DNA of 64,000 nt, from contig NZ_CP053746.1 in the NCBI RefSeq assembly GCF_013201545.1, positions 3,796,501 through 3,860,500 of the forward strand, written 5' to 3'. The DNA comes from Pseudomonas graminis. GTDB lineage: Bacteria > Pseudomonadota > Gammaproteobacteria > Pseudomonadales > Pseudomonadaceae. A model generated the notes under the pieces. It saw only the letters and a program-made list of their open reading frames with translations, was not told the origin of the DNA and made no database searches. The position numbers were made by a program, and so were the translations under genes. Positions 1,228-46,743 of the stretch are shown one piece after another (positions within the stretch are counted from its first letter, which is position 1; each line of letters opens with the position of its first letter).

Positions 1228-1340
1228 GCGCGCCTGCAGATTAGCTCGCGTCTCGCGGGGCCCCGGTGCCCTGCTGCAAGTTCTGTCGATTTCGTAAGTT
1301 CCAGTCACTCTGGTTCGGTCTTCACGTTGGCCTTCGGGCT

Positions 1341-1418
1341 CCTGCCACTGTGAGGCAGGCATACCACCGAATCGCGTACTGGCTCTATCCCACCCACGTG
1401 ACCTTTGGTAGGGGTCAC
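1341..1418 (+). promoter_or_regulatory. thrS leader with two threonine-anticodon-like hairpins
   Basis: Hairpin A (1341-1359) is CCTGCC / GGCAGG around the 7-nt loop ACTGTGA; anticodon positions of that loop read UGU. Hairpin B (1398-1418) is GTGACC / GGTCAC plus a T-G closing pair around the 7-nt loop TTGGTAG; it has U33 and anticodon positions reading GGU. Both are threonine anticodons. Hairpin B closely resembles the tRNA-Thr(GGU) anticodon arm and sits 4 nt before the purine-rich Shine-Dalgarno stretch at 1423-1433. Known biology: E. coli ThrRS represses its own mRNA by binding two leader stem-loops, at least one an anticodon-arm mimic, on either side of an unpaired region. The layout here is the same. 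That ThrRS binds this RNA is inference. Confidence 0.6.
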
Positions 1419-1437
1419 CACTAGGAGAGGAGGCGCC

Positions 1438-3360
1438 ATGCCAACTATTACTCTTCCCGACGGCAGTCAACGTTCTTTCGATCACCCGGTATCCGTTGCC
1501 GAGGTCGCAGCATCCATTGGTGCGGGCCTGGCCAAAGCCACCGTGGCCGGCAAGGTCAACGGTCAACTGGTTGATGCCAGCGACATCATCGACACCGATG
1601 CGAGCCTGCAAATCATCACCCCCAAGGATCAGGAAGGCCTGGAGATCATTCGTCACTCCTGCGCGCACCTGGTTGGCCACGCCGTCAAGCAGCTCTATCC
1701 GACTGCAAAGATGGTGATCGGCCCGGTCATCGATGATGGCTTCTATTACGATATCGCCTATGAGCGTCCTTTCACGCCGGACGACATGGCGGCGATCGAG
1801 CAGCGCATGCAACAGCTGATCGAAAAGGATTACGACGTCATCAAAAAAGTCACGCCGCGCGCGGAAGTGATCGACGTGTTTACGGCCCGTGGCGAAGACT
1901 ACAAGCTGCGTCTGGTCGAAGACATGCCAAACGAGCAGGCCATGGGCCTGTACTACCACGAAGAATACGTCGACATGTGCCGCGGTCCGCATGTGCCGAA
2001 CACCCGTTTTCTGAAGTCATTCAAATTGACCAAGCTGTCCGGCGCCTACTGGCGCGGCGATGCCAAAAACGAGCAATTGCAGCGCGTTTACGGCACGGCC
2101 TGGGCCGACAAGAAGCAGCTGGCGGCTTACATTCAGCGCATCGAAGAAGCCGAAAAGCGCGATCACCGCAAGATCGGCAAGCGTCTGGGCCTGTTCCATA
2201 CCCAGGAAGAAGCGCCGGGCATGGTCTTCTGGCACCCGAACGGCTGGACGCTCTACCAGGTTCTCGAGCAGTACATGCGCAAGACCCAGCGCGAGAACGG
2301 CTACCTGGAGATCAAAACGCCTCAGGTCGTCGACCGCTCCCTGTGGGAGAAGTCCGGGCACTGGGCGAACTACGCCGAGAACATGTTCACCACCGAGTCG
2401 GAAAACCGCGACTACGCCATCAAGCCGATGAACTGCCCTTGCCACGTGCAGGTGTTCAATCAGGGCCTGAAAAGCTACCGCGAGTTGCCGATGCGTCTGG
2501 CCGAATTCGGCGCTTGCCACCGCAACGAACCTTCGGGCGCACTGCACGGCATCATGCGTGTTCGAGCGTTCACTCAGGACGACGCGCATATCTTCTGCAC
2601 CGAAGAACAAATGCAGGCTGAATCCGCCGCGTTCATCAAGCTGACCATGGCCGTCTACGCCGATTTCGGGTTCAAAGACATCGAAATGAAGCTGTCGACC
2701 CGGCCGGAGAAACGTGTCGGCTCCGACGAGTTATGGGATCGCGCCGAGTCCGCACTCGCTGCAGCCCTTGACAGTGCTGGCCTGCCGTACGATCTGCAAC
2801 CGGGCGAGGGTGCGTTCTACGGTCCGAAGATCGAATTTTCTCTCAAGGATTGCTTGGGTCGCGTCTGGCAATGCGGTACTCTGCAGCTCGATTTCAACCT
2901 GCCGATCCGTCTGGGCGCCGAATTCGTGTCGGAAGACAACGGTCGCAAGCACCCGGTCATGTTGCACCGCGCAATTCTTGGCTCCTTCGAGCGCTTCATC
3001 GGAATCCTGATCGAGCATTACGAAGGCGCGTTTCCTGCGTGGCTGGCTCCAACTCAAGCAGTGATCATGAATATCACTGACAAACAGGCTGATTTTGCCC
3101 TTGAGGTGGAAAAAACATTGGCGCAAAGCGGATTCCGTGCCAAGTCCGACTTGAGAAATGAAAAGATCGGCTTTAAAATCCGCGAGCATACGTTGCTCAA
3201 AATTCCGTATCTCCTCGTGATTGGGGATCGGGAGGTTGAAACACAAACTGTCGCTGTGCGTACACGTGAAGGCGCAGACCTTGGCTCGATGCCGGTCGCC
3301 CAGTTCTCGGAGTTCCTTGCACAAGCGGTTTCCCGGCGTGGTCGCCAAGATTCGGAGTAA
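1438..3360 (+). CDS. thrS: Threonyl-tRNA synthetase
   Basis: A 640-residue class II synthetase that charges tRNA-Thr. Order of domains: N-terminal TGS domain (about 1-61, beginning [10 protein letters not shown]), the SAD editing domain (about 65-225, with [10 protein letters not shown] and the later YVDMCRGPH motif), the catalytic core (PMNCPCH, zinc-binding region; [14 protein letters not shown]), and the C-terminal anticodon-binding domain ([14 protein letters not shown]). I chose the ATG at 1438 because it follows an AGGAGAGGAGG site and gives the normal family length; an in-frame start 33 bp upstream has no such site. It heads the thrS-infC-rpmI-rplT cluster. Confidence 0.98.
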
Positions 3361-3365
3361 TTATT

Positions 3366-3911
3366 ATTAAGCGTGAAATGAGACAAGATAAACGAGCTGC
3401 ACCGAAAGCCCCGATCAACGAGAATATCTCGGCACGTGAGGTTCGTTTAATTGGGGCTGAGGGTGAGCAGCTTGGGATTGTGTCAATTGAAGACGCGCTT
3501 CTTAAGGCTGAAGAGGCCAAACTGGATCTGGTGGAAATTTCCGCCGATGCAGTACCCCCTGTTTGCAAACTGATGGACTACGGCAAATCGATCTTCGAGA
3601 AGAAGAAACAGGTTGCTGCCGCCAAGAAGAATCAGAAGCAGATCCAGGTAAAAGAAATCAAGTTTCGTCCAGGGACGGAGGAAGGGGATTACCAGGTAAA
3701 ACTACGCAACCTGGTACGTTTCCTGAGTGACGGGGACAGGGCCAAGATTTCCTTGAGATTTCGCGGTCGTGAGATGGCCCACCAGGAGCTGGGGATGGAG
3801 CTGTTGAAGCGGGTTGAAGCTGACCTGCTCGAATACGGCTCGGTCGAACAGCATCCTAAGATGGAAGGACGCCAGCTGATCATGGTCATCGCCCCGAAAA
3901 AGAAGAAATAA
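3366..3911 (+). CDS. infC: Translation initiation factor IF-3 (AUU start)
   Basis: IF-3 binds the 30S subunit, prevents premature 50S joining and proofreads the start codon. Both domains are visible: N-domain [20 protein letters not shown], linker rich in K, and C-domain [19 protein letters not shown], ending APKKKK. I place the start at ATT 3366 (product [10 protein letters not shown]...). GGAG at 3354-3357 lies 8 nt upstream, ideal spacing, whereas the downstream ATG at 3378 has no Shine-Dalgarno. AUU starts are known for infC in E. coli, where IF-3 represses its own translation from that rare codon. The gene begins 6 bp after thrS ends. Protein length is 181 residues. Confidence 0.93.
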
Positions 3912-37599: not shown

Positions 37600-37870
37600 A
37601 AAGTCCAGACAACACCAAACGCGACTTTGGTGCAGGCTGAACGCAGCTCTCGAGGAGTGGGCCGAGCGGCATGGATGCCGCGAGAGCCGCCCCCCGCCAT
37701 GGATGGCGGATGGCGGCGGGCCCACGGAGCGAGACCGGAGTGAAGGAACCCCGAGGTACGAGGGGCCCAACCAGGAGCAAGCACCCTTGGTTACTTGGGG
37801 TGCTTTTCCAAGTAACTCGCCGAAGGCGAAACTGTCTGCCCCCAGGCAGACGCCCTTGATCTTGATCTTT
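37600..37870. repeat. Long intergenic repeat of Pseudomonas type
   Basis: This stretch has features I associate with a widespread pseudomonad intergenic element: a hairpin GGTTACTTGG...CCAAGTAAC (about 37787-37815), a CGCCCCCCGCCATGGATGG core and CCCCAGGCAGACGCCC near the right end. It yields proline- and arginine-rich open frames on several strands that are not genes. Copy number must be confirmed by genome search. Confidence 0.45.
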
Positions 37871-43196: not shown

Positions 43197-43272
43197 GGGG
43201 CTATAGCTCAGCTGGGAGAGCGCCTGCATGGCATGCAGGAGGTCAGCGGTTCGATCCCGCTTAGCTCCACCA
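43197..43272 (+). tRNA. tRNA-Ala (anticodon GGC), copy 1
   Basis: A 76-nt cloverleaf: acceptor GGGGCTA / TAGCTCC, anticodon loop ATGGCAT between CCTGC and GCAGG, T-arm with GGTTCGATCC and encoded CCA. Confidence 0.96.
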
Positions 43273-43355
43273 AATTAGAAGCTTCAAGGGTCGCTTTACT
43301 GCCTTGAAGCTTGTACCGAATCGGAACCAGCGCCGATGCGGTACGCAAGGGTTAC

Positions 43356-43431
43356 GTCCCCTTCGTCTAGTGGCCTAGGACACCGCCCTTTCACGGCGGT
43401 AACAGGGGTTCGAGTCCCCTAGGGGACGCCA
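43356..43431 (+). tRNA. tRNA-Glu (anticodon TTC), copy 1
   Basis: A 76-nt cloverleaf: acceptor GTCCCCT / AGGGGAC, anticodon loop CTTTCAC between CCGCC and GGCGG, T-loop TTCGAGT and encoded CCA. Confidence 0.96.
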
Positions 43432-43482
43432 GTTTTACCGAGTGATGCGTTAAAGCTGATCTCCGCCGAGAGGCGTAAAGTC

Positions 43483-43558
43483 GGGGCTATAGCTCAGCTG
43501 GGAGAGCGCCTGCATGGCATGCAGGAGGTCAGCGGTTCGATCCCGCTTAGCTCCACCA
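43483..43558 (+). tRNA. tRNA-Ala (anticodon GGC), copy 2
   Basis: Identical over its full 76 nt to copy 1 at 43197-43272 as read by eye. Confidence 0.96.
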
Positions 43559-43612
43559 ATTTCTGCCAGGGTTCGTCATGTTGTCATCGACGAATCTGCT
43601 CGAAGGTTTTGC

Positions 43613-43688
43613 GTCCCCTTCGTCTAGTGGCCTAGGACACCGCCCTTTCACGGCGGTAACAGGGGTTCGAGTCCCCTAGGGGACGCCA
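43613..43688 (+). tRNA. tRNA-Glu (anticodon TTC), copy 2
   Basis: Identical over its full 76 nt to copy 1 at 43356-43431 as read by eye. The spacers between the four tRNAs differ. Confidence 0.96.
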
Positions 43689-46235: not shown

Positions 46236-46299
46236 ATTACGCGATGCCGAAGTCGGGTCGCGGAGATAACCACTTGCTGATTTATCAGGAGATTTTCAG
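46236..46299 (+). promoter_or_regulatory. ROSE-like RNA thermometer in the ibpA leader
   Basis: CTTGCTGA (46273-46280) pairs with TCAGGAG (46285-46291), covering the Shine-Dalgarno AGGAG. The pairing includes the UUGCU box and a G-G mismatch, the signature of ROSE elements, which melt at high temperature. An upstream GC-rich hairpin (around 46240-46265) fits the usual multi-stem layout. Known for small heat-shock genes of proteobacteria, including pseudomonads. Confidence 0.75.
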
Positions 46300-46743
46300 A
46301 TGACTACTGCATTTTCCCTGGCTCCACTGTTCCGTCACTCCGTTGGCTTCGACCGCTTCAACGACCTGTTCGAATCGGCGGCGCGCAACGAGTCGGCGAG
46401 CAGCTATCCTCCCTACAACGTCGAAAAACACGCTGATGACCAATACCGCATTGTCATCGCGGCGGCGGGGTTCCAGGAGGAAGATCTGGAGTTGCAAGTC
46501 GAGAAGGGCGTACTGACCGTCACCGGCAGCAAGCGCGAGAACACCGCGGAAGGCGTGACCTTCCTGCACCAGGGCATTGCCCAGCGTGCATTCAAGCTGT
46601 CGTTCCGCCTGGCTGATCACATCGAGGTCAAAAACGCTGCTTTGGCCAATGGCCTGCTGAACATTGACCTGCTGCGTCTGGTGCCTGAAGAGGCCAAGCC
46701 AAAACGCATCGAAATCAATGCTCAGAAAACCCTGACTCACTGA
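46300..46743 (+). CDS. ibpA: Small heat-shock protein, Hsp20/IbpA
   Basis: A 147-residue chaperone that holds unfolding proteins. The alpha-crystallin domain runs about 37-125: YPPYNVEKHADDQYRIVIAAAGF, then LTVTGSKR and FKLSFRLADHIEV, with NGLLNIDL. The N-terminus MTTAFSLAPLFRHSVGFDRF is typical of IbpA. Transcription from the sigma32-type promoter and the ROSE-like leader give double heat control. An intrinsic terminator follows. Confidence 0.96.
   Translation: MTTAFSLAPLFRHSVGFDRFNDLFESAARNESASSYPPYNVEKHADDQYRIVIAAAGFQEEDLELQVEKGVLTVTGSKRENTAEGVTFLHQGIAQRAFKLSFRLADHIEVKNAALANGLLNIDLLRLVPEEAKPKRIEINAQKTLTH

Follow-up and report, generated by a model that had tools for sequence, protein, structure and literature searches.

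The thrS leader of Pseudomonas graminis carries a predicted E. coli-type operator with two anticodon-arm-like hairpins

Introduction

Is the threonyl-tRNA synthetase (ThrRS) of Pseudomonas graminis controlled by its own product, through imitation tRNA anticodon arms in the leader of its gene? The question is raised by a 64,000-nucleotide stretch of the chromosome (the window, in what follows), in which thrS is preceded by two hairpins whose 7-nt loops carry threonine anticodons. The E. coli thrS operator includes two anticodon-arm-like hairpins, and ThrRS keeps the 30S subunit away (PMC7373986, PMC11088916, PMC3858243); a table in a further paper gives G34, G35 and U36 as the bacterial threonine identity set (PMC9976931). 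No study of a Pseudomonas thrS operator was recognised in the literature as represented by titles and abstracts, where subscription papers are thinly covered, and an earlier account of the operator's spread may exist.

Results

The thrS gene (1438..3360, + strand, as are the leader features described below) encodes a 640-residue ThrRS, the presumed repressor, that aligns over its full length with E. coli ThrRS with a single gap and 412 of 641 aligned positions identical. The N-terminal and anticodon-binding domains are both present in this alignment, and the protein matches the PDB chains of 1qf6 and 1kog. Five of the six residues that we take to contact the anticodon in the E. coli enzyme (N575, K577, R583, R589, E600 and R609) are the same in the window ThrRS, the exception being R589, which is aligned with K. 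A genome listed under the same species as the window (G020) encodes a ThrRS that is only 95% identical, and two genomes of the same genus reach 98%. The genes downstream, named from their translations, are infC, rpmI, rplT, pheS and pheT. In-frame AUU codons are present at 3360, 3363 and 3366, upstream of the infC ATG at 3378, and one of these is probably the true start, a parallel to E. coli IF3, which we take to start at AUU.

The Shine-Dalgarno (SD) region of thrS (1423..1433) consists of AGGAG at 1423–1427 and a second SD-like AGGAGG at 1428–1433, ahead of the ATG at 1438. Neither a sigma-70-like promoter nor a terminator-like site was seen in 1050–1440, and the presence of the upstream hairpin in the transcript is an assumption. 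The leader contains no match to any Rfam family at gathering score. Elsewhere in the window there is a ROSE_3 RNA thermometer match (46238–46305, 72.6 bits) and a TwoAYGGAY RNA match that is just at gathering score (37659–37723, 43.1 bits), and a tRNA-Ala(GGC)/tRNA-Glu(UUC) pair is duplicated at 43197–43688.

The hairpin nearer to the gene, hairpin B (1398..1418), has the sequence GTGACCT-TTGGTAG-GGGTCAC, with seven base pairs including a U-G closing pair, and its loop UUGGUAG (1405–1411) has U33 and GGU at positions 34–36, such that G35 is nucleotide 1408 and U36 is 1409. Four bases (1419–1422) separate it from AGGAG. A preliminary description of this locus had likened it to the anticodon arm of tRNA-Thr(GGU), and this is borne out by the host's own tRNA, whose arm (CACCC-TTGGTAA-GGGTG) agrees with the hairpin's inner 17 nt at 13 of 17 positions. 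Three host tRNA-Thr genes were seen, with G, U and C at position 34, in a scan that covered the loci of 30 of 58 tRNA matches, and further such genes are possible; the arm of tRNA-Thr(UGU) is ACTGA-CTTGTAA-TCAGT. Likeness to one particular isoacceptor is not the point, as shown below by the variation at position 34. Hairpin A (1341..1359, CCTGCC-ACTGTGA-GGCAGG) was likewise correctly described as having a 7-nt loop with UGU at the anticodon positions and C at position 33; its stem is of 6 bp, the loop ACUGUGA occupies 1347–1353, and G35 and U36 are nucleotides 1350 and 1351. The CACU that follows hairpin B (1419..1422) lies in columns at least 90% conserved. Its CAC forms a bulge, and the U, together with the next G in homologues, can pair with the CA that precedes the stem; this CA/UG flank helix is 93.7% paired in 72 homologues with zero compensatory changes. 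In the aligned homologues the CAC bulge and the UG are about as conserved as the stem itself. The linker between the upstream element and hairpin B (1383..1397, GCUCUAUCCCACCCA) is almost invariant in its genus form in a 63-row alignment and is largely unpaired in the predicted centroid, and thus presumably mostly single-stranded, while the nearby 1367–1373 and 1378–1382 pair within the helices P1 and P0 described below.

Two such hairpins are rarely expected by chance. When hairpins were defined by a 7-nt loop with GU at positions 35–36 and a 6 bp stem with at most one G-U pair, dinucleotide shuffling of the 120 nt that precede the start codon produced two of them in none of 5000 shuffles, and at least one in 43. 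The whole-leader fold energy, in contrast, is uninformative and was set aside as evidence: the stability of the 246-nt leader is ordinary (z −0.04), and fold energy alone would have missed the hairpins. The minimum free energy (MFE) structure contains hairpin A as described and hairpin B in place, with the loop of B closed further to 3 nt. This is no argument against hairpin B, since the energy model treats the loop of the host's genuine tRNA-Thr(GGU) arm in the same way when that arm is folded by itself. Among the MFE structures of 63 leaders, the closing pair of hairpin A is missing in eight, as is an inner stem pair of hairpin B in eight.

Hairpin B is widespread in the Gammaproteobacteria. 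A thrS match was found in 318 of 321 genomes of the class and in all 95 of the order, and leaders were read from these searches (88 from the class, 28 from the order and one from the family). With three omitted because a contig end cuts the leader (L118, L139 and L142), the set holds 114, of which 111 are from outside the family once one Pseudomonas leader (L133) and two sister-genus leaders (L102, L132) are put aside. Scanning the last 120 nt for hairpins with 7-nt loops finds GU at positions 35–36 in 73 of the 111, compared with GA in 28 and each of the 14 remaining dinucleotides in between 4 and 12; 25 of 33 GA hairpins resemble T arms belonging to upstream tRNA genes. When the 114-leader set, with its family members, is shuffled, GU appears in 8 leaders on average and 14 at most. 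By the same scan of the last 120 nt, 38 of the 111 leaders have no GU hairpin. A tRNA-Val(GAC) gene often seems to lie shortly upstream of thrS in the class, to judge from a hairpin with AC at 35–36, read as an anticodon arm, within 220 nt in 65 of 114 leaders; in the genus, ARAGORN, run on 14 leaders, confirmed a tRNA-Val gene at L085:58-134, well upstream of the leader element.

Because a hairpin scan itself selects for pairing, the test was redone with a motif, CCACT[GA] no more than 60 nt from the start, as the sole criterion for choosing leaders, and 66 of the 111 qualify. At the register that this flank predicts, 65 of the 66 pair at six or more of the seven positions, and none does so when slid by 1–3 bases. 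The same 65 carry G35-U36, with C (36), G (21), A (6) or U (2) at position 34. A 72-sequence alignment of hairpin B, with 66 sequences from outside the family and E. coli included, has G35 and U36 as its only invariant loop columns. It contains 31 cells with double-sided changes, against 6.0 (sd 2.1) in shuffles, and five pairs have such changes; its cells are 94.9% paired, against at most 51.7% when slid, a percentage that is partly so by construction, the set being mostly scan hits, whereas the flank-chosen test is free of this effect. The position 34 results dispose of one earlier suggestion, that a different anticodon in each hairpin would be a special feature: the base at 34 is free in both, and homologues of B also have A34.

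Within Pseudomonas, thrS is present in all 119 genomes drawn, and leaders from 71 of these, with two from other genera of the Pseudomonadaceae, yield the 63 distinct aligned rows. Here there is scarcely any variation between the linker and the start codon, hairpin B and its flanks included (loop UUGGUAG in 61 rows, UUCGUAG in 2). Hairpin A is the more variable, and its loop pattern is therefore the more telling: there are 18 loop sequences, position 34 is U, C or G, the remaining positions also vary, and G35 and U36 are the only invariant positions, present in 63 of 63. Its stem is 99.2% paired, with every change one-sided and no compensatory pair, and thus provides no compensatory support for A. 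The alignment of leaders called for in the preliminary description comes out in favour of its reading: pairing and G35-U36 are kept throughout Pseudomonas, and for B also in many Gammaproteobacteria and with compensatory changes.

Hairpin A is part of a larger upstream element. In the window it adjoins a small side hairpin (1329..1340, GGCC-UUCG-GGCU; 95.2% of cells paired in 63 leaders) inside two nested helices, an arrangement that is a three-way junction in the MFE structure. The inner helix, P1, pairs GGUUCGG (1312..1318) with CCGAAUC (1367..1373), and 95.7% of its cells are paired in the 63 leaders; the outermost, P0, pairs CCAGU (1301..1305) with ACUGG (1378..1382), and four of its five pairs are constant in all rows that have letters there, while 10 of 63 leave the fifth unpaired. 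The MFE structure and the alignment agree on both helices. The whole Pseudomonadaceae structure has 21 double-change cells, against 9.0 (sd 2.8) in shuffles. Eighteen of these fall on the innermost P1 pair, which 16 rows leave unpaired. The number of pairs with double changes is reached in 14 of 500 shuffles, so the covariation in the upstream element is modest.

A third arm lies between hairpin A and the 3′ strand of P1 in 35 of the 63 leaders. Folded by themselves, 32 of the 35 form a four-way junction of which A, the NGU hairpin, is the middle arm. The fold of leader L072, for example, has a 5-bp closing helix, a 2-nt linker, a 5-bp arm, a 5-bp arm with the 7-nt NGU loop, and a 6-bp arm. 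In an alignment of 32 leaders that have the third arm, three of four pairs of the third arm have double-sided changes, and the four-way structure has 31 double-change cells against 9.1 (sd 2.2) in shuffles. There are contrary signs: 94 of 500 shuffles match the number of pairs with such changes, a slide of +1 still gives 22 cells, and the RNAalifold covariation term is small (−1.94). A tRNA-derived origin of the element was considered and rejected, since neither the tRNA model RF00005 (up to E 10) nor ARAGORN finds anything in the leader element of 14 leaders, 12 of which have the third arm; the cloverleaf likeness is, on these model searches, one of shape only.

More than one copy of the mimic is also seen outside Pseudomonas. 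A covariance model of hairpin B (R1), whose training set included three sequences from the genus, has two or more matches on the thrS strand at E≤5 in four of 60 class stretches (L171, L196, L202 and L210), and in genome G154 (L119) three domain-2-like hairpins, two of them weak, stand in a row before thrS. With looser criteria and 220 nt scanned, at least two GU loops are present in 8 of 114 leaders, against 0 to 4 for other dinucleotides; the eight include two family leaders and two whose stems look fortuitous. It is possible, if on balance doubtful, that the upstream ThrRS site of Pseudomonas sits on a cloverleaf-like RNA, such that a whole-tRNA-shaped decoy, gained or lost within the genus, would accompany a separate anticodon arm, while other Gammaproteobacteria would repeat domain 2 as two or three tandem mimics.

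The hairpin B model has one match in each of 119 Pseudomonas genomes, with positions relative to thrS compared by eye for some, and in the host genome only thrS stands out (E 1.8e-9; next best E 0.075). Matches at E≤1 occur in 153 of 321 class genomes, although many training sequences come from the same genomes, and with strict filters the remaining 168 have no match at this threshold; together with the 38 leaders lacking a hairpin, this indicates that the control is not universal even within the class. At E≤2e-4 there are 108 class matches, and all 71 that could be compared with a thrS entry on the same contig and strand lie 6–36 nt before thrS, the other 37 having no listed entry for comparison. 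A degenerate operator pattern is found in at least 118 stretches of named genomes, and the matches listed include Serratia, Photorhabdus, Xenorhabdus, Aeromonas, Halomonas, Rheinheimera, Hahella and Cellvibrio. Among the matches listed, 117 of 118 precede a frame with the ThrRS LPD motif, and the remaining one, L339, also precedes a ThrRS frame. L339 is titled a Polyangiaceae bin and its ThrRS frame has a gammaproteobacterial look; it was not accepted as a case outside the class and is putatively the product of mis-binning.

Thirteen second copies of ThrRS were read from these genomes, 56–60% identical to that of the window (ten in Pseudomonas, three of which have an in-frame stop, and three in the order); their role may be self-protection against a ThrRS inhibitor, which is a guess on our part. 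Before these 13 the model finds nothing better than E 0.36, while in the same comparison it matched before seven of seven ordinary thrS copies, the weakest at E 0.005. Over 299 genomes of the phylum, 50 match at E≤0.01, seven of them outside the class. For these seven and for four further class places, the longest of the frames that begin up to 130 nt past the match was inspected; it was a ThrRS frame at none of the seven and at one of the four (L411), so this sample holds no case outside the Gammaproteobacteria. Genome G423 has a displaced operator-like hairpin (L410:145-176, GUGAUCU-GUCGUAU-GAAUCAC followed by CACUGGA; R1 E 4.3e-5), behind which there are only a 41-aa frame and a convergent gene, with no thrS in the stretch read; it is possibly a relic of a lost thrS copy.

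Discussion

Judged by its sequence, the leader belongs with the E. coli-type thrS operator, and its upstream site is a variant form. Gene, place and the presence of two anticodon-like hairpins are the same. E. coli domain 2 (GUGAUCU-UUCGUGU-GGGUCAC, then CACUG) aligns with hairpin B of the window, the anticodon-like triplet being CGU in the former and GGU in the latter. That E. coli-like control of thrS in Pseudomonas would be noteworthy was part of the initial reading; hairpin B is indeed the counterpart of domain 2, but it is no peculiarity of Pseudomonas. The feature corresponding to domain 4 of E. coli, a second anticodon-like hairpin upstream, is present at 1341–1359 in a junction unlike the E. 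coli fold. In the window this site is a compact hairpin with a 7-nt loop in a three-way junction (four-way in about half of the aligned leaders), whereas the E. coli leader is predicted to fold into a long, irregular hairpin whose apical loop, GACUGUUG, has 8 nt. In E. coli the two hairpins are joined by domain 3, a single-stranded linker that forms part of the ribosome site; between the hairpins of the window lie both 1383–1397, predicted to be largely unpaired, and the strands 1367–1373 and 1378–1382, which pair in P1 and P0. Counted from G to G, the loops are 58 nt apart in the window (1350 to 1408) and 64 nt in the E. coli leader, where the count is to the ACUGU apical loop. The SD sequences also differ, AGGAGG in the window and UAAGGA in E. 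coli (PMC3858243). Autoregulation of yeast AspRS, by way of an anticodon-like stem-loop in the mRNA, offers an analogy only: there too the synthetase binds its own message at a site that resembles tRNA (PMC7373986), though enzyme, kingdom and RNA architecture are different.

We consider it very probable that ThrRS binds the leader of its own mRNA as a translational operator, one hairpin serving each half of the dimer. The steps that we infer are this binding, the use of A as a second site, repression and competition by tRNA. In the proposed mechanism free ThrRS, a dimer with two anticodon-binding sites, would take B and A for anticodon arms of tRNA-Thr, with recognition resting on G35 and U36 and position 34 counting for little. 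Sitting on hairpin B, four nucleotides before the SD, it would block 30S binding, and hairpin A would offer a site to the second subunit; tRNA-Thr would compete for the enzyme, such that ThrRS output would follow tRNA supply. A fixed G35-U36 with a free position 34, A34 included, fits recognition that depends weakly on 34 and does not fit copying of one tRNA gene. Counting against this, G34 is among the bacterial determinants in the identity table (PMC9976931), whereas the leaders leave position 34 free.

The main alternative concerns hairpin A, which could belong to a structural element of another role (in mRNA stability, as a standby site, or for another binder) that keeps the GU loop for that role, leaving hairpin B as the only ThrRS site. 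Hairpin A does sit within a larger conserved junction, 67 of the 76 leaders with GU hairpins in the last 120 nt (114-leader set) have just one, and even where the hairpin B model picks up the A region, as it does in the lesser part of 40 genus leaders, the match is poor (E 1.1 to 4.9). Nonetheless, loop A varies everywhere except at exactly G35 and U36 in the 63 leaders, and the interloop distance is close to that of E. coli, and we regard this alternative as unlikely. Much less likely still is that both hairpins are a structure of translation initiation or mRNA stability that ThrRS does not recognise. A purely structural role would be in keeping with the position beside the Shine-Dalgarno and the extreme conservation of the flanks in the genus, but it leaves unexplained both GU at 35–36 with a free N34 and the absence of the element before the 13 second ThrRS copies.

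T-box riboswitches also control synthetase genes from the leader; their sensing is RNA-RNA, they carry a codon-like specifier, and a terminator is often present. T-box-like control or attenuation that senses uncharged tRNA-Thr by base pairing might thus come to mind for the leader of an aminoacyl-tRNA synthetase gene. Here, however, the loops display the anticodon and not the threonine codon, 1050–1440 is without a terminator-like site, and the leader is without an Rfam match at gathering score; we give this explanation almost no weight. The preferred reading remains that of an operator bound by ThrRS at both hairpins.

These observations indicate, from sequence alone, that a textbook control of E. 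coli is common to many Gammaproteobacteria. The leaders amount to a natural test of the rule by which ThrRS reads its targets, for across 63 rows of A and 72 of B exactly G35 and U36 never change in the loops. Since no Rfam family reaches gathering score in this leader, publishing a model would allow the element to be annotated across many genomes. Nature has supplied variants with C, G, A or U at the wobble base, with one, two or three mimics, and with three- or four-way junctions, and these serve the study of how a synthetase tells its own mRNA from tRNA.
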